Shown piece by piece: positions 31,488 to 48,612 of a stretch of 54,676 nucleotides of DNA. The stretch is from Rhodobacter sp. (lineage in GTDB: Bacteria; Pseudomonadota; Alphaproteobacteria; Rhodobacterales; Rhodobacteraceae), in the NCBI GenBank assembly GCA_020250445.1, contig JADCEF010000104.1:1-54676 (forward strand). Direction: 5' to 3'. A model generated the notes under the pieces. The model was not told where the DNA came from and did not search any database. It saw only the letters and a program-made list of their open reading frames with translations. The position numbers were made by a program, and so were the translations under genes. Position 1 is the stretch's first letter; every line of letters starts with the position of its first letter.

Positions 31488-31757
31488 CTAATTGTAGTTC
31501 ACCAGATAGACCGTGATGGCCACAGCGGTGACGGGAATGACATAGACAAGAAGGATCAGCCAGCGGCGCAGGCTGTGCTGATAGGCCTGCATGCCCTTTT
31601 CGACAAAGGCATCGCGGTCCCCCGGCATATCGCCCCCGTCGAACTGCTTTTCCAGCTTTTCGCGCCGGACAGATCGGGAATAGACCGACACCAGCAGATA
31701 GATCACCGTCAGGATCAGAAACCCGACCACGGCAAAGGTAAGAATTGCAATCATCAT
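31488..31757 (-). CDS. small two-helix membrane protein
   Basis: An 89-aa protein with hydrophobic segments at about 3-25 and 66-86, separated by a charged loop (SRSVRREKLEKQFDGGDMPG). No family recognised. Its ATG overlaps the stop of the truncated upstream frame (ATGA at 31754-31757), showing it once followed that gene in an operon. An AAGGGC-like ribosome site remains, so it may still be expressed, together with DUF1523. Confidence 0.7.
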   Translation of the reverse strand: MMIAILTFAVVGFLILTVIYLLVSVYSRSVRREKLEKQFDGGDMPGDRDAFVEKGMQAYQHSLRRWLILLVYVIPVTAVAITVYLVNYN

Positions 31758-32012
31758 CTGCCCTTCCGTACGGCCCCCCAGGGGCCTACCAGATCAACAA
31801 GGCTGCGCGCGGGCTGCGGGGCCGGGCGCGGGACGGCAGGCTGGCTGTCTTCCATGCCCGGTTCCGGGCCGAACAATGCGGCGCGCGCACCCGCCTTGTC
31901 CACCTGATACTCTCTTGCCAGGAAATCCGCCACATAGCTGCGCTTGCGGTCCGACCAGGTGGCATAGAGGGCATAGAACAGCTCTTTATGGGTGATGAAC
32001 AGCTGGCGCAGA
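31754..32012 (-). pseudogene. 3' fragment of an unknown gene, 5' end lost at an IS junction
   Basis: An open frame on the minus strand encodes about 85 residues including LRQLFITHKELFYALYATW and SYVADFLAREYQVDKAGARA, ending in a Pro-rich tail. It stops in an ATGA overlap with the 89-aa membrane gene. There is no ATG, GTG or TTG in frame; upstream it runs straight into the IS256 end. I read this as the surviving 3' part of a gene cut by the insertion sequence. The protein family is not recognised. Confidence 0.6.
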
Positions 32013-32155
32013 GGTATGCCCGAAAGTTGGTGACGCTTGATCAGGCGGCGTCCTGAAGTTGGCGGATGCCGTCGCGGAACTCAATCCCTTCCATAATCCC
32101 GGGCAGGCGGTTTTTGCCATCGAGTTTGCGCCATTTGCCCTGCGCGGCGATCATC
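32010..32155 (-). mobile_element. IS256-family remnant: transposase C terminus plus right end
   Basis: On the minus strand the last about 33 codons of an IS256-type transposase remain: KWRKLDGKNRLPGIMEGIEF then RDGIRQLQDAA and a stop at 32041-32043. The WR.L.G.N.LP....G..F.DGI pattern is the usual IS256-group ending. The following CACCAACTTTCGGGCATA resembles the terminal inverted repeat. The rest of the element, including the DDE residues, is gone. Upstream the frame continues into a psd fragment. Confidence 0.7.
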
Positions 32156-32370
32156 GGCACCACGCCTTCCGCCGGGCTGACGACCAGAGCTTCGCACAGC
32201 GGCATGACGGGCTGCGGATCGCGGAAGAAATCATGGCGCCTGACCGTCAGGTCGGCGCCCGTTCAGCCCAGCCGTTCGGCAGGGAAGAACAGGATGGCAG
32301 TGGCGGCGGCACAGCGATAGCTTTCGCGGTGAATGGGCGTGAGGAAAGCCGACAGCACGCTGGCGGACAT
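32156..32370 (-). pseudogene. psd: 5' fragment of phosphatidylserine decarboxylase (psd), degenerate
   Basis: From the ATG at 32370 (MSASVLSAFLTPIHRESYR) the minus strand resembles the first about 70 residues of Rhodobacteraceae Psd: a PIH.E.Y/R opening, a hydrophobic stretch, then FFRDPQPV and LVVSPAEGVV. The expected WCYY before FFRDP has decayed, and an in-frame TGA at 32263-32265 interrupts the frame. After GVVPMIAA it switches into the IS256 transposase tail. The catalytic C-terminal half (LGST-type cleavage site) is missing, so it cannot be functional. A complete psd must lie elsewhere if the organism makes phosphatidylethanolamine this way. Confidence 0.72.
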
Positions 32371-32382
32371 CGACAGGGCACC

Positions 32383-32452
32383 GTCCCGCGCGGGCGGGGG
32401 AAACGCGGGTCGCGTTTCCTGATCCCGCCCCCAGGGGCAATCCCTGTTCCCG
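32383..32452 (-). repeat. inverted partial copy of the mosaic repeat
   Basis: On the minus strand this matches the head of the repeat copy at 48296-48362: CCGGGAACAGGGATT, then the facing GGAAACGC / GCGTTTCC elements and CGCCCGCGCGGGAC. The GC-rich tail module is absent; the match breaks off at the psd remnant. Confidence 0.8.
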
Positions 32453-32485
32453 GAGCGGGAAGATTTCCCGGCAGGCAGGCGGTCG

Positions 32486-32504
32486 GGCTGCTGTTTCAGC
32501 AGCC
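32486..32504 (-). terminator. hairpin right after the LRR-TIR stop
   Basis: A perfect 8-bp stem GGCTGCTG / CAGCAGCC with a 3-base loop, starting 2 bases past the LRR-TIR stop. There is no T-run; possibly a transcript-end stabiliser. Confidence 0.45.
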
Positions 32505-32506
32505 TG

Positions 32507-34840
32507 CTACCGGAAGAATTGCAGGAGTCGGTCAAAGATCGGTCGCAACCGCGCGGCAAGGGTTGCCGCCGCATCGGGCACCGTCAGCACGTTGACAACA
32601 ACGCCACTTGTTGCAGCCCCGATAATCCCACCCGTCGCATAGGCAAGACCACGAACGGCCTTTCGCAAACCGGCATAGCGGCGCGTCTCATCCACGGTTC
32701 CTGCCGCCTCGTGGATCCGCTTGACCTCTTTCGCGATCAGGTCAATGCTGGCCGGGTCCAGCGTCGCATTGGCTTCAGCCGAGTTGAGAACCTGCGAAAC
32801 CTCCCCGGCGAGGTCCTGCACAGCGGCCACATCAGCCGCACGCACGACCGGGTCCGGCTCTGGCGGCTTTGCCCCTGCTTCCCCCGCAGGCACCTGACGC
32901 GGCTGCAACAGCGGGCGCAACTCTTCCAGCCGCTGGATCAGCCGCTCAAGCGACCCGACCATCACCATATTCCACGCCTGCCCGGCATCATGGTCAGACA
33001 TGCACTCGCGCAGCGTGGCACGGGCATCATCAATGCCATACCAGCTTAAGGTCTCCGCGTGCAGCGCGGTATGCACGGCGGCCAGGGCATGCCCCAGATC
33101 GGCGGGAAACTGGTAATTGTCCCGGTCTGCCGCCTTGGCGCGCAAGGGGGCAAGAATCTGTTTCAGCCCTTCAACCCGCGCTGCCAGGTCCGGGGCGTTT
33201 ACCACCTCGGGGCGCACATTCGGGGGCGTGTCCACGGGCGCAAGCCGCCCGCCTTTCGGCAGCATGGCCACCGGGCTTGCGGCCAGCAGCCGTACCGCCA
33301 TCGCCGCTGCATCGGGCGGGTTCAGCCGGTCGTGCAGCGCCTGCAACAGCTTTGCCATCTGCGGGTGGGTTGCCGTGCCGTCCCAGCCACGCAGATCGAC
33401 GTATTGCGTTTCGCCAAATCCCCAGGGCAGCGGCGCATCATCCAGCCGCACATGCAAAAGCCGCCCTGTGGCCTGGGCATGCGATGCCTCCTCGACAACC
33501 GCCTTTCGCGCCACGCTTTCCTGCGTCCAGAATGTGACAACCGCCTTTGCCGCGTCCAACTGCGTGGCAATCGTTCTGCGCCATTCCGCCCCGGCGGGAA
33601 TATCCTGATCCCACCACAGGGGAAGCCCCTGACCCGTCAGAAAGTCCCGAAGGGTGCCGATCCGCGGCCGATCCTGGCTTGCATAGGATAGAAAGAAAAA
33701 GGCGGGGGTCGATCCGGTCTCTGGCGGCGGATCATCACGCGGGGCGGGTGCCCCCGGCGGCACCCAGCCCCCATCCAGCAGATCAAACAGCGCCTTTGCC
33801 CGCGCGGCGTCGTCCTCAATTCCGGCAATTTCGGCGATCCGCGGATCGGCTGTTGCCGGAATGCTGCGGAACGAAAGGCCCCCCTCCTCGGGTTCGTCTG
33901 CCAGCTTGCGCAGTCCGGCAAGGGGCCGCAGGTCCCGCACCTGCGTTCTGTCGAGCGAGAGGGTCCGCAACCCCGTCAGCCCCTGCACCGGGGCAAGGTC
34001 GCTGACCGGCGTTCTGTCGAGCGAGAGGGTCCGCAACCCCGTCAGCCCCTGCAGCGGGGCAAGGTCGCCGACCTGCGTTCTGTCGAGCCAGAGGTTCTGC
34101 AATCCCGTCAGCCCCTGCAGCGGAGCAAGGTCACTGACCTGCGTACCGTAGAGCATGAGGGTATCCAACCCCGTCAGCCCCCGCAGCGGGGCAAGGTCGC
34201 TGACCTGGGTGTTGTTGAGAAAGAGGCTCTGCAACCCCGTCAGCCCCCGCAGCGGGGCAAGGTCGCTGACCTGGGTGTTGTTGAGAAAGAGGGTCTGCAA
34301 CCCCGTCAGCCCCTGCAGCGGGGCAAGGTCGCTGACCTGCGTTTTGTCGAGCCAGAGGTCCTGCAGCCCCGTCAGCCCCTGCAACGGGGCAAGGTCGCTG
34401 ACCTGCGTGTAGCCGAGCCGGAGGGTCTGCAACCGCGTCAGCCCCCGCAGCGGCGCAAGGTCGCTGACCTGCGTGGTGTCGAGCGAGAGAATCTGCAACC
34501 CCGTCAGCCCCTGCAGCGGGGCAAGGTCGCTGACCTGGGTGTTGTCGAGCCAGAGGGTCTGCAACCCCGTCAGCCCCCGCAGCGGGGCAAGGTCGCTGAC
34601 CTGTGTGTTACTGAGCCAGAGGCGCTGCAACCCCGTCAGCCCCTGCAGCGGTGCAAGGTCGCTGACCTGAGTCTTGTCAAGGATCAAGGTGCGCAGCTTG
34701 TCCAGCGCACCGATGCCCGGCGGCAGGGCCGCCAGCGCCCGGAACGCCTCGCCGCTGAAATCAAGCGTCTCTGCCCCCGTCCGCTTGGCCTGCTCAATCG
34801 CCGCCCCGGCGGCCTTCCAGGCGTCTTGCGCAGCACTCAT
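32507..34840 (-). CDS. LRR-TIR protein, candidate immune receptor or NADase
   Basis: A 777-aa protein. Residues 1-48 are a helical cap. Residues 49-312 are twelve 22-residue leucine-rich repeats of consensus LQxLxLDNTQVSDLAPLQGLTG. Residues 313-378 are a linker ending in a Pro-rich hinge. A TIR domain covers about 380-505: FFFLSYASQDRPRIGTLRDF, LPLWWDQDIPAGAEWRRTI, VVTFWTQESVARKAVVEEAS with candidate catalytic Glu450/451, and LLHVRLDD. Residues 505-720 match nothing I know; the end (about 725-777) is hydrophobic to amphipathic. Bacterial TIR domains often cleave NAD+ in anti-phage defence, and LRRs sense ligands. Both roles are inferred. The usual Trp of the S-x-x-x-W motif is not obvious. 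The ribosome site is only a G-rich run, so the start at MSAAQDAWKA is moderately sure. Confidence 0.85.
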   Translation of the reverse strand: MSAAQDAWKAAGAAIEQAKRTGAETLDFSGEAFRALAALPPGIGALDKLRTLILDKTQVSDLAPLQGLTGLQRLWLSNTQVSDLAPLRGLTGLQTLWLDNTQVSDLAPLQGLTGLQILSLDTTQVSDLAPLRGLTRLQTLRLGYTQVSDLAPLQGLTGLQDLWLDKTQVSDLAPLQGLTGLQTLFLNNTQVSDLAPLRGLTGLQSLFLNNTQVSDLAPLRGLTGLDTLMLYGTQVSDLAPLQGLTGLQNLWLDRTQVGDLAPLQGLTGLRTLSLDRTPVSDLAPVQGLTGLRTLSLDRTQVRDLRPLAGLRKLADEPEEGGLSFRSIPATADPRIAEIAGIEDDAARAKALFDLLDGGWVPPGAPAPRDDPPPETGSTPAFFFLSYASQDRPRIGTLRDFLTGQGLPLWWDQDIPAGAEWRRTIATQLDAAKAVVTFWTQESVARKAVVEEASHAQATGRLLHVRLDDAPLPWGFGETQYVDLRGWDGTATHPQMAKLLQALHDRLNPPDAAAMAVRLLAASPVAMLPKGGRLAPVDTPPNVRPEVVNAPDLAARVEGLKQILAPLRAKAADRDNYQFPADLGHALAAVHTALHAETLSWYGIDDARATLRECMSDHDAGQAWNMVMVGSLERLIQRLEELRPLLQPRQVPAGEAGAKPPEPDPVVRAADVAAVQDLAGEVSQVLNSAEANATLDPASIDLIAKEVKRIHEAAGTVDETRRYAGLRKAVRGLAYATGGIIGAATSGVVVNVLTVPDAAATLAARLRPIFDRLLQFFR
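33897..34694 (-). repeat. 66-bp tandem repeat array encoding the LRRs
   Basis: Twelve in-frame 66-bp units. The block encoding TQVSDLAPL-GLTG is nearly identical at DNA level in most units; variation is concentrated in the five or six codons of the LxxLxLxx surface strand. Units 1 and 12 and the ones nearest the TIR are the most diverged. Confidence 0.9.
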
Positions 34841-35001
34841 CCCCGCCCCCCCGATCCCTCTGCGTCCATGGGCCGGGCCGGCGGTCCCCGCAAGGCGGCC
34901 CCCGGCCAAAGACCATGACCAATCCCTGACCGCCCCCGCATAGCCCTTGATCCGCAACGCCCGTCACGGCTGCCCGCCGCGGGGTGCCCCAAGGGCCCCC
35001 G

Positions 35002-35310
35002 TCAGAACCGTTCGGCCCGAAGCACCTCGCAGTCGCTGACGGACACCACCCCGATGTGGCGTTCCACCACCTCGAAGGCCGCCGTCAGCAGGGCGTCCAG
35101 CCGGTCGGGGCGGATCAGGCAGACCACGGCGACCATGCCCTGGCGGCCCACCTGCCCTTCCCTTGTCCAGCGGCCTGACCGGCCCGATCCACCCAGCACC
35201 GGCAGCACGGTGAACCCCGTCACCCCGGCGCGTTCCAGCGCCGCCGTCAGCCGGGTTTCCATCGGCGCCTCGATGATGATCTCGACCCGTTTCGCCTGAT
35301 GTGTCTGCAT
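35002..35310 (-). CDS. sbtB: PII-like regulator of bicarbonate transport (SbtB type)
   Basis: A 102-aa ferredoxin-like PII-family protein: VEIIIEAPMETRLTAALERAGVTGFTVLPVLGGSGRSG, a T-loop-like segment, then MVAVVCLIRPDRLDALL and the C-terminal strand. It lacks the PII uridylylation Tyr context. One base separates it from sbtA, and cyanobacterial SbtB binds and regulates SbtA in response to adenine nucleotides, so that partnership is the best reading. The nucleotide sensed is not known here. Confidence 0.8.
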   Translation of the reverse strand: MQTHQAKRVEIIIEAPMETRLTAALERAGVTGFTVLPVLGGSGRSGRWTREGQVGRQGMVAVVCLIRPDRLDALLTAAFEVVERHIGVVSVSDCEVLRAERF

Positions 35311-35311
35311 C

Positions 35312-36289
35312 TCAGCCCCCCGCGACCGCGCTTGCCAGTGCCACGTACAAAGGGATGCCGACCGTCAGGTTGAACGGAAAGGTCACCCCCAGCGACAGCG
35401 TCAGATAGATGCTGGGGTTGGCCTCGGGCAGGGCCACCCGCATGGCCGCCGGCACGGCGATGTAGCTGGCCGAAGCCGCCAGCGTCATCAGCAGTGCCAA
35501 TCCCCCCGCCGACAGGCCCAGTCCCGCCCCCATCAGCAGCCCCGCCGCCGCCCCGATCGGCGGCATCAGCACGCCGAACAGGATCGCGCCCGCGCCCAGC
35601 ACCCTGCCCGAGGTGCGCAGGCCGCGCCCCGCGACCAGCCCCATGTCCAGCAGGAACAGGCACAGCACCCCCTGAAAGGGCGAGACGATGAAGCTTTCGA
35701 TCCGCGCCAGCCCCTCGGCCCCGGTCAGAAGGCCGATCACAAAGGACCCGACCAGCAGCACGATGGAGCCGTTCAGAAGGATCTCGCGCCACAGGTCGCT
35801 GTCGACATCGGCCCCCTCGCCCACCTTGGCCACGATCCACAGCGCCGAGATGATGGCCGGTGCCTCCATCGCCGCCGCAACCGCCACCATGTAGCCTTCG
35901 GACGATATCCCGCGCCCCTCCAGCACCGAAGTGGCGGTGACAAAGGTGACAATGCTGATCGATCCGTAATGCGCCGCCACCGCCGCCGCATCGGCCACGC
36001 TGAACTGCGTCAGGACGCGCAGCAGGCCAAAGGCGACAAAGGGCAGCGCGACGGACAGCAGCACCCCGGCGGCCAGCGCCGAAACCAGGCTGAAGCCAAT
36101 CCCGTGGTCGCCCACGGCAGCCCCCCCCTTGAAGCCGATGGCAAAGAGCAGGTAGATCGACAGGGCCTTTGCGGCCGCCTCGGGAACCGAAAGGTCGGAT
36201 CGCGCCAGGGCGGCCAGCAGCCCCAGAACAAAACACAGAATCATCGGCGACAACAGGTTGCTGCCCGCCAGTGCAAGAATATCCGTCAC
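35312..36289 (-). CDS. sbtA: sodium-dependent bicarbonate permease (SbtA family)
   Basis: A 325-aa protein with about ten hydrophobic segments in two inverted halves, the SbtA/DUF897 length and layout. LSPMILCFVLGLLAALARSDL, YLLFAIGFKGG, FVTATSVLEGRGI, AMEAPAI and LPEANPSIYLTLSLGVTFPFNLTVG correspond to conserved SbtA stretches. It would import HCO3- with Na+ into the cytoplasm. It lies 52 bp downstream of the carbonic anhydrase and next to sbtB, forming an inorganic-carbon operon. Confidence 0.88.
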   Translation of the reverse strand: MTDILALAGSNLLSPMILCFVLGLLAALARSDLSVPEAAAKALSIYLLFAIGFKGGAAVGDHGIGFSLVSALAAGVLLSVALPFVAFGLLRVLTQFSVADAAAVAAHYGSISIVTFVTATSVLEGRGISSEGYMVAVAAAMEAPAIISALWIVAKVGEGADVDSDLWREILLNGSIVLLVGSFVIGLLTGAEGLARIESFIVSPFQGVLCLFLLDMGLVAGRGLRTSGRVLGAGAILFGVLMPPIGAAAGLLMGAGLGLSAGGLALLMTLAASASYIAVPAAMRVALPEANPSIYLTLSLGVTFPFNLTVGIPLYVALASAVAGG

Positions 36290-36340
36290 CTGTCCCCCCG
36301 CCTTTTCTTCAGAATATCAGCCTGCGCGGGCGGCAAAAGA

Positions 36341-36991
36341 TCAGACCGCAACAAATCCGTCCAGTGCGGGATCGTATTGCTCCAGTCCGCCCGCGCCGGT
36401 ATCGGTCCACAGGCCGTGCAGGGTCAGCCGTTCATCTGCCAGCGCCTCGCGCACGAAGGGAAAGGTCATCAGGTTTTCCAGGCTGATGACCACGGCCTGC
36501 TTTTCCATGGCCTGCACCCGCCCCGGATCGCCGGCCAGCAGTGCCGTGCGCGCGAACCCCGGCCGCAGGATGTCCATCCAGCGCCCGACGAAGCTGGACC
36601 GGGCTTCCAGCTCGGGTGCCTCGCCAAGGCACATGTCGTGGCATCCCTTGACGCCGCCGCAGTTGGAATGCCCCAGCACGACGATATGGGCCACCCGCAG
36701 GGCGGTCACGGCATATTCGACCGCCGCCGAAGTGCCGTGATACTGCCCGTCGGGATTGAAGGGCGGGACCAGGCTTGCAATGTTGCGGTGGATGAAGAAC
36801 TCGCCCTCGTCCGCGCCGAAGATCGAGGTGACGTGCACACGGCTGTCGCAGCACGAGATGATCATGGCGCGCGGCATCTGCCCGGCCTCGGCCAGTCGGC
36901 GGTACCAGGCCTTGTTGTCCTGATAGGTGGTGGCGCGCCAGCCATGAAAGCGCTGGATCAGATAGGCGGGCAGCGGTCTGGCCTGATCCAT
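36341..36991 (-). CDS. beta-class carbonic anhydrase
   Basis: A 216-aa zinc enzyme interconverting CO2 and bicarbonate. Zinc ligands are Cys47 in SCCDSR (with the Asp49-Arg51 dyad), His108 and Cys111 in LGHSNCGG. No signal peptide, so cytoplasmic. First gene of the CA-sbtA-sbtB unit; bicarbonate brought in by SbtA would be equilibrated by this enzyme for carboxylases. The promoter must lie in the 210-bp divergent gap 36992-37201. Confidence 0.93.
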   Translation of the reverse strand: MDQARPLPAYLIQRFHGWRATTYQDNKAWYRRLAEAGQMPRAMIISCCDSRVHVTSIFGADEGEFFIHRNIASLVPPFNPDGQYHGTSAAVEYAVTALRVAHIVVLGHSNCGGVKGCHDMCLGEAPELEARSSFVGRWMDILRPGFARTALLAGDPGRVQAMEKQAVVISLENLMTFPFVREALADERLTLHGLWTDTGAGGLEQYDPALDGFVAV

Positions 36992-37201
36992 GACTTGTCC
37001 TTTGCTGATGCCCTGCGCCTTTCAATAGGCAAAGGCTTCGCCAACAGGAACCCTTTTGTTGCGCCCCCTGCCGGGCCGGCCGCCAATCTGCCCCGGCACA
37101 GATCAAGACAATTCGACGCAAAACCCGGTTGGGCCACAACCCTTTGTTCAGCACCGCGTGGCAGGCTTGGCCTGGGTGTGATTTCAGGGTGATCGGGTGA
37201 T

Positions 37202-37585
37202 ATGTCAGGCAATGTGACGGCCTTGCGACCGAAGGAACGTGTGCGGCTGGATGCAGAGCCGATCGCATCGATCTATCGCAATCTGGGACCCGGCGGCGCG
37301 GAACAGGTTGTCTCGCGCGCCCTGGGCGAGCTGGCCCTGACCCTTGCCGGTCTGGTGGAACAGGTGCGGCGGCGCGAGCTTGGCGATCTGGGCCGGGGGC
37401 TGCGGCGGCTGCAGCGGATGGCCGATCATCTGGGCATGATCAGCCTGGGTCTGATCGCCGCCGAGGCGCGCATCTGCATGGACCGGTCCGATGCCACGGC
37501 CTTTGCCGCCGTCTGGGCCCGGCTGATCCGGGTGGCGGAAGCATCGCTGGCCTGGGACAAGGAATTGCTGGACCAGTCGCTGTAG
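37202..37585 (+). CDS. conserved helical protein, possibly Hpt-like
   Basis: A 127-aa, mostly helical protein. A short tail (MSGNVTALRPKERVRLD) is followed by helices with GGAEQVVSRALGELALTLAGL and LRRLQRMADHLGMISLGLIAAEA. His in RMADHLGM sits where a histidine phosphotransfer domain could carry its phosphate, but the flanking K-G of the Hpt motif is missing. Unrecognised otherwise. It lies 78 bp upstream of the aminopeptidase. Confidence 0.6.
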   Translation: MSGNVTALRPKERVRLDAEPIASIYRNLGPGGAEQVVSRALGELALTLAGLVEQVRRRELGDLGRGLRRLQRMADHLGMISLGLIAAEARICMDRSDATAFAAVWARLIRVAEASLAWDKELLDQSL

Positions 37586-37662
37586 GCGGCCGACGGGGCT
37601 TGCGGCGAAGTCCGGAGCGGCTAGGCTGCGCGGTATCCACCGCCCTGACCCGGATCACGCCC

Positions 37663-48098: not shown

Positions 48099-48612
48099 CA
48101 GGGTGCCGCAAGGGGCATCCGCGCCGCCTGGCGGACGCAAGAGTGGGAATGATCCGTCGCACAGGCGGCCTGCGGACGTGTTCGCTGTTTTCCGGCCAGA
48201 GGTCCTTGCAGTCGGCCCCTTTTCGGCACCCCGCCAACAGGTTGCTCAAACACCGATCCGCCCGCTTGGACCGCCGGGACACTCTTGCCGATCCGGGGAC
48301 AGGGATTACCCTTTTGGGCGGGAACAGGAAACGCGACCTGCGTTTCCCCCGCCCGCGCGGGACGGTGCCCCGTAGACCAGAACGTCCGGGAGACACAGAG
48401 GCCGGCGCCCGACCCGGCGGGCGAGAAGCGCCCGCCGGGGGCGGGGCGGGCACTGGCCGGGGGGGCTTTGCGCCCCCCGGCGGGACAAGGTGCAGCGGAG
48501 CGCTGGGACAGGGTCGATGACCCCTGCGAGGAACCGTAAGGCACGCGCAGGCAGACCTGTTTCCCGCTTTCCGTTCAGCCACCCCTGCGGCCAGCGCCTC
48601 TTCAGCGCCCCG
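48099..48612. repeat. full mosaic repeat copy between DUF1217 and fliI
   Basis: No gene is supported in this 514-bp gap. About 48296-48362 holds the head module (facing GGAAACGC / GCGTTTCC, then CGCCCGCGCGGGAC). 48396-48480 holds the GC-rich tail with CCGGGGGGGC / GCCCCCCGG. 48502-48530 holds the GGGTCGATGACCCC-type hairpin. The order matches copies A and B at 1-430. The segment 48099-48295, downstream of DUF1217, shows no clear feature. Confidence 0.85.

Follow-up and report, generated by a model that had tools for sequence, protein, structure and literature searches.

The LRR-TIR gene and its surroundings

The window, i.e. the whole stretch of 54,676 nucleotides from a Rhodobacter sp. genome (G000) that was analysed, carries a gene for a protein of 777 residues that runs from an ATG at position 34840 to a stop codon ending at 32507 (Table 1). 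The gene is no chance open reading frame, since its copies in two genomes of the same genus, G005 and G001, are 88% and 86% identical. A sequence-only reading had placed it at these coordinates, which were correct, the strand being minus, and had described a compact protein in which twelve 22-residue leucine-rich repeats (LRRs) are joined to a TIR domain without an intervening NTPase module. This architecture was borne out: Pfam LRR_4 matched over the repeats (residues 49-312, E=1.1e-50) and TIR_2 at residues 382-488 (E=1.5e-18), and NACHT, NB-ARC and Roc-COR had no Pfam match in the protein at E<=1. The motifs FFFLSYAS, WWDQDIPAG and VVEEAS, on which the TIR assignment had been based, are all present in the translation. 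The C-terminal region could not be assigned to any family in that reading, and indeed the last 260 residues matched no Pfam family and, by profile, no PDB sequence at E<=1. A search of NCBIfam with the whole protein gave matches to LRR-bearing models only, all of them under their cut-offs.

Table 1 Features in and around the LRR-TIR gene (positions in the window).
Feature	Position	Strand	Evidence
LRR-TIR-tail gene, 777 aa	32507..34840	minus	ORF and Pfam; copies in G005 (88%) and G001 (86%)
N-terminal cap, residues 1-48	34697..34840	minus	pN 0.028, pN/pS 0.26 (G000 vs G005)
Twelve 22-residue LRRs, residues 49-312, presumed sensor	33905..34696	minus	Pfam and variation; positions 3, 5, 7 and 8 vary most
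Family-specific C-cap and proline hinge, residues 303-368, overlapping the last repeat	33737..33934	minus	Profile A6; homology to G002 ends inside, at 33754
TIR domain, residues 380-507	33320..33703	minus	TIR_2 E=1.5e-18; profile matches to AbTIR, SARM1 and plant TIR chains
E451 codon, presumed catalytic Glu	33488..33490	minus	Invariant in 9/9 aligned TIRs; aligned with AbTIR Glu
T-type helical tail, residues 518-777	32510..33289	minus	Modelled helices in two bundles, mean pLDDT 70; TIR-less T-tail member in G209
Carbonic anhydrase, SbtA-type transporter and P-II-like genes, upstream of the LRR-TIR gene	35002..36991	minus	Pfam; SbtA and P-II also adjoin family members in G189 and G238
3' piece of DUF6638	31757-32080	minus	Pfam E=6e-30

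Between the stop codon of the LRR-TIR gene and a small gene at 31488-31757 lie broken gene pieces (region 31757-32508, minus strand), among them the DUF6638 piece of Table 1. Two fragments beside this piece are psd-like by eye, in line with the psd remnant proposed previously, but had no Pfam match at 0.01. The stretches at 1-407 and about 48238-48527 of the window are repeated in other contigs of the same genome and of the same genus, with 81-85% identity in most pairs; some of the copies lie at contig ends, so that the repeats may explain where the assemblies break.

TIR active site and helical tail

In an alignment of nine TIR domains one glutamate is invariant, namely E451 of the E450/E451 pair, and in a profile alignment this residue is aligned with a glutamate of the AbTIR chain. 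The catalytic Glu of AbTir is given as E208 (PMC10022894), and the AbTIR glutamate that faces E451 is probably this residue. A TIR domain lacking the glutamate of the NADase site is thus not the case here, as the position is kept as E451. AbTIR has a tryptophan four residues before its catalytic Glu, where the window protein has Ala447, and activity or product may therefore differ from those of AbTIR. The domain is under purifying constraint between G000 and G005, with a pN of 0.017 and a pN/pS of 0.18.

An AlphaFold2 model based on an alignment of four sequences gave pLDDT values of mostly 77-91 for the LRR block and poor values of 27-45 for the TIR domain, with a helical tail; the tail modelled alone likewise consisted of helices, in the two bundles of Table 1. 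The closest structures to the modelled LRR part were the LRRs of the C. tepidum Roco protein (E 2.5e-24) and internalin A (about 1e-23).

A mostly TIR-less family with several tail types

The window protein belongs to a family that is defined by its LRRs together with a specific C-cap, on which the profile A6 was built. Using A6, 31 of 394 sampled genomes of Rhodobacteraceae were positive, i.e. the presence is patchy, and among 289 genomes drawn across the class only the window's own genome was found. Loci were available for 30 of the 38 A6-matched places. Among the loci examined, we counted 36 distinct family members, including some truncated genes. Despite several draft MAGs the family is no assembly artefact, since members are located on long contigs (4.2 Mb in G238 and 1.8 Mb in G306).

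Tail profiles were used to type 35 ORFs, of which five carry a TIR domain. Six have the T tail of the window protein, five of these with TIR and one, in G209, without; nine, twelve and three have the tails termed Q, R and S, respectively, whose profiles were built from members of the typed set itself, and five have no type. Two members outside the building sets were typed as S (L123, 2e-18) and Q (L124, 1e-27). A second family gene of the window's own genome, on contig C3, is a paralogue with a Q tail and no TIR. Since 30 of the 35 typed members are TIR-less, the tail must matter without a TIR. The reading of the gene as a single LRR-TIR protein was therefore right as to architecture and incomplete, since most of its family lack a TIR and the protein represents the branch that has one.

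A profile-profile comparison of the T, R and Q tails gave no match, and cross-matches between tail types within the 36-sequence set were weak (E about 1e-5 to 1e-2); a single tail family common to all members is thus not supported. Two of the five members without tail type carry DUF6161 (E 8.4e-10 and 9.6e-12), of which no mention was found in the open-access literature. In these members (L082:628-1503 and L095:571-1503, minus strands), the DUF6161 domain, which has strongly hydrophobic stretches, forms the end of the protein in place of the other tails. In G023 there are five TIR-matching places on three contigs (among C19, C120, C122 and C134), and the LRR protein on C134 (L018) continues into what is, by the look of the sequence, an apparent P-loop GTPase.

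Variation of the LRR face

Across the repeat units, positions 3, 5, 7 and 8, which we take to be the exposed x of LxxLxLxx on the concave face, as in other LRR folds, are the most variable, positions 2, 10 and 18 are less so, and the frame is nearly invariant. Between units, pN/pS at the exposed positions was at least 1.50 and at most 4.22 in seven family groups; an eighth (G238) had a far higher value, with a pS close to zero. Three unrelated LRR proteins gave values of 1.28, 0.88 and 0.79, and are imperfect controls because they are more diverged (higher pS); groups with only three units (G189 and the control L047) were left out of this computation.

The same positions stand out between genomes. 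For G000 and G005, pN was 0.42 and pS 0.22 at exposed positions, with a pN of 0.062 at the other LRR positions, and 48.8 of the 77.3 nonsynonymous changes fell on exposed LRR positions, a share that was reached in none of 10000 permutations. Exposed pN/pS was above 1 in all five pairs compared (1.18 to 2.47), and exposed pN exceeded the pS of the whole gene in four of them (p 1e-13, 3e-13, 0.011 and 2.5e-5); the exception is the pair G000/G002 at the carbonic anhydrase site described below (p 0.11). Within the exposed codons alone the nonsynonymous excess is weak, with p values of 0.076 to 0.52 for single pairs and of 0.023 when three pairs are pooled. The number of repeats is not constant among same-genus copies, and a reshuffling of repeats could be the source of a joint increase of nonsynonymous and synonymous changes. 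Taken together, these comparisons are strong evidence for a variable LRR surface; for positive selection on its exposed positions the evidence is moderate. The sensor role that had been ascribed to the LRRs gains support from the variation of the concave face.

A diversity-generating retroelement was considered as the source of the variability and rejected: RVT_1 had no match in the 97%-complete own genome, and the LRR DNA matched only itself and the C3 paralogue there, so that no template repeat was seen.

Different tails at the same loci

At the carbonic anhydrase/SbtA/P-II site of the window (locus A), the family member has a TIR domain and T tail in G000, G001 and G005, a Q tail in G002 and G238, and an S tail in G189. 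The window and G002 are 89% identical over 34137-37622; within the gene the homology stops at 33754, a position in the hinge that follows the C-cap, and beyond it window-by-window identity drops to 0.32-0.48. Where the exchange ends on the 3' side is not visible, because no homology to the window was found downstream of the G002 gene. In G238 the LRR gene lies between the carbonic anhydrase and SbtA genes on the opposite strand, and its placing is therefore not identical. SbtA and P-II thus adjoin family members in two further genera, those of G189 (L123:7224-10148) and G238 (L125:7268-11275); either insertion recurs at this site or the genes may be linked in function. Four other genomes (G006, G007, G011 and G021) keep SbtA and P-II and showed no DNA homology to the LRR gene in the examined stretches, the contig of G006 ending about 1.3 kb past P-II.

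Locus B, with a peroxidase gene, an aminotransferase gene and a RodZ-like gene as neighbours, has Q tails in G000 and G002 and R tails in G001 and G005. Its flanks are 88-95% identical; between them, homology is lost from the hinge onwards and is regained no more than 50 bp from the stop codon. G001 was compared by the downstream flank only, and the two sides of G005 are on two contigs (L038 and L042) that were taken as one locus. The aminotransferase and RodZ-like neighbours were also found in G011 (R tail), G189 (Q tail) and G184 (no tail type). At a further locus, C, the R-tail members of G189 and G037 have both flanks in common, and G026 (no tail type) shares one of them. As different tails occur at the same loci in different species and the same tails across loci, tail type does not follow locus. 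From these alignments it looks as if the C-terminal module is exchanged while the LRR sensor, the C-cap and the chromosomal site stay.

Genomic neighbourhood of the family

The site of the gene had been regarded as a spot where defence genes accumulate. We scanned the neighbours at 12 of 16 family loci, four (L126, L128, L130 and L131) having been dropped as the GC-frame gene caller called no LRR gene there. Only one of 117 neighbour proteins matched PADLOC at 1e-10 (mad2); the neighbours tested are housekeeping genes, and family members recur at housekeeping loci. The argument from location for a defence role therefore fails, and the enrichment of homologues in defence islands that had been set beforehand as a test was not found. 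As to conserved neighbours that would tie the gene to another pathway, SbtA and P-II do recur in three genera, which speaks in part against a defence role; other members are at loci with different neighbours.

Searches of plasmid and phage collections with the TIR domain plus tail gave partial matches, confined to the TIR, in two plasmid records and one phage record, none of them covering 80% of the query, and viral contigs gave no match at all. An R tail had no match in the plasmid collection. Taken with the neighbourhood scan, these searches are moderate evidence against a defence system that is mobile. Immune receptors fixed in the chromosome would still be compatible with them.

Discussion

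The window protein shares with bacterial TIR NADases such as AbTIR the fold family, as recognised by profile, and the position of the catalytic Glu, and it differs from AbTIR in carrying LRRs and an unmatched helical tail on the same chain and Ala447 in place of the tryptophan; its NADase activity is putative. Similarity to the TIR systems of PADLOC (SAVED_TIR, Thoeris ThsB and TIR short Argonaute) is weak and confined to the TIR, with E=1.8e-4 to SAVED_TIR for the whole protein. Unlike in CBASS, short Argonaute and Thoeris systems, no SAVED, Argonaute-like (pAgo) or ThsA-type part was matched in the protein, and its adjoining ORFs are housekeeping genes. Animal Toll-like receptors have an LRR solenoid before the TIR domain on one chain and no NTPase. 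The window protein shares this order, but has no visible transmembrane helix between LRRs and TIR, an additional helical tail, and 22-residue repeats of the internalin/Roco type. Plant TIR-NLRs and bacterial NACHT (NLR-related) proteins likewise combine a recognition module and a death or immune executor in one protein, but with an NB-ARC or NACHT module, which is missing here. In comparison with the C. tepidum Roco protein and the internalins, whose LRRs are the closest structures to the model, the window protein has no match to a Roc-COR GTPase and is not a surface invasin.

A constant C-cap, a presumed sensor face that varies and putative executors that differ at the same sites make up the pattern of a recognition-and-response receptor, and we infer from it a defence role for the LRR-TIR protein. 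In our best explanation, the gene would encode a single-gene immune-type receptor without NTPase, presumably cytoplasmic. Its LRR solenoid would recognise via the concave face some variable molecule of non-self origin, most probably one made by phage; ligand binding would gather several copies, and the TIR domains thus brought into association would cleave or cyclise NAD+. The helical tail may serve to cluster or anchor the protein or may itself be the executor, and in relatives it would work without any TIR. We give an even chance to a single-gene receptor for non-self, probably phage, molecules that acts through NAD+ in the TIR-bearing branch.

Part of the evidence could also be read as that of a fast-evolving scaffold without immune role, in which the exposed LRR positions are unconstrained and repeats and tails are reshuffled by recombination. 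Relaxed constraint predicts an exposed pN near pS, which is what one pair gives (1.18), the comparison of pN and pS inside the exposed codons is marginal (pooled p 0.023, single pairs 0.076 to 0.52), and copies of the same genus differ in repeat number. However, exposed pN/pS is above 1 in all five pairs and reaches 2.47, in four of them exposed pN is higher than the pS of the whole gene, with p values from 0.011 down to 1e-13, and the TIR domain and its Glu remain constrained, which makes a mere scaffold rather unlikely. Variation of the concave face is also not what a host ligand would predict, and this bears on a regulator of host physiology, for instance of inorganic-carbon uptake or P-II signalling at the SbtA site, whose LRRs would bind host proteins. 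Such a role would account for the presence of SbtA and P-II next to family genes in three genera, as well as for the shared strand of these genes in G189 and in the genus of the window. It is unlikely given that other members have different neighbours, that the G238 gene sits between carbonic anhydrase and SbtA on the opposite strand, and that the gene is missing beside SbtA/P-II in G007 and G011, whose members are on other contigs.

Recognition of other strains or kin by a polymorphic receptor at fixed loci, as in fungal incompatibility, would mean that the trigger for LRRs and tails comes from other strains' molecules or from incoming DNA instead of phage. The varied recognition face and the different C-terminal types of close relatives at fixed housekeeping loci are what it would predict, but the same pattern fits phage recognition, and no contact or DNA-transfer functions were among the tested neighbours; we consider this quite unlikely. 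Polymorphic toxins have a constant front and exchanged C-terminal modules. The family resembles them in having a constant N-terminal part followed by swapped C-terminal modules, but a toxin against other bacteria is very improbable: the protein starts with MSAAQDAWKAAGAAIEQAK, in which no signal peptide is seen by eye, and no immunity gene accompanies the member at locus B, where there is no room for one matched to the tail because the sequences become homologous again no more than 50 bp from the stop codon.

Known TIR effectors of bacteria usually depend for their activation on a partner, on a messenger or on a STAND ATPase. More tentatively than the single-gene phage receptor itself, we propose that the Rhodobacteraceae have a dispersed receptor family at fixed chromosomal loci, comparable to Toll-like receptors, NLRs and the VLRs of lampreys. 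Selection would diversify the LRR face, and behind a C-cap that stays the same recombination would swap the executors (TIR with helical tail, several helical types, or the DUF6161 type). Each gene would be complete without NTPase, second messenger or partner protein. A search of the open-access literature by title and start of the abstract found no paper on an NTPase-less bacterial LRR-TIR family, an absence that is weak evidence. If the proposal is correct, a single-chain LRR-TIR protein with a diversifying face and an exchanged executor would represent, in minimal form, a bacterial counterpart of the Toll-like and NLR receptors. It would make testable how LRR recognition alone switches on a TIR domain, and the natural pairs with different tails at the same locus would provide ready-made comparisons.
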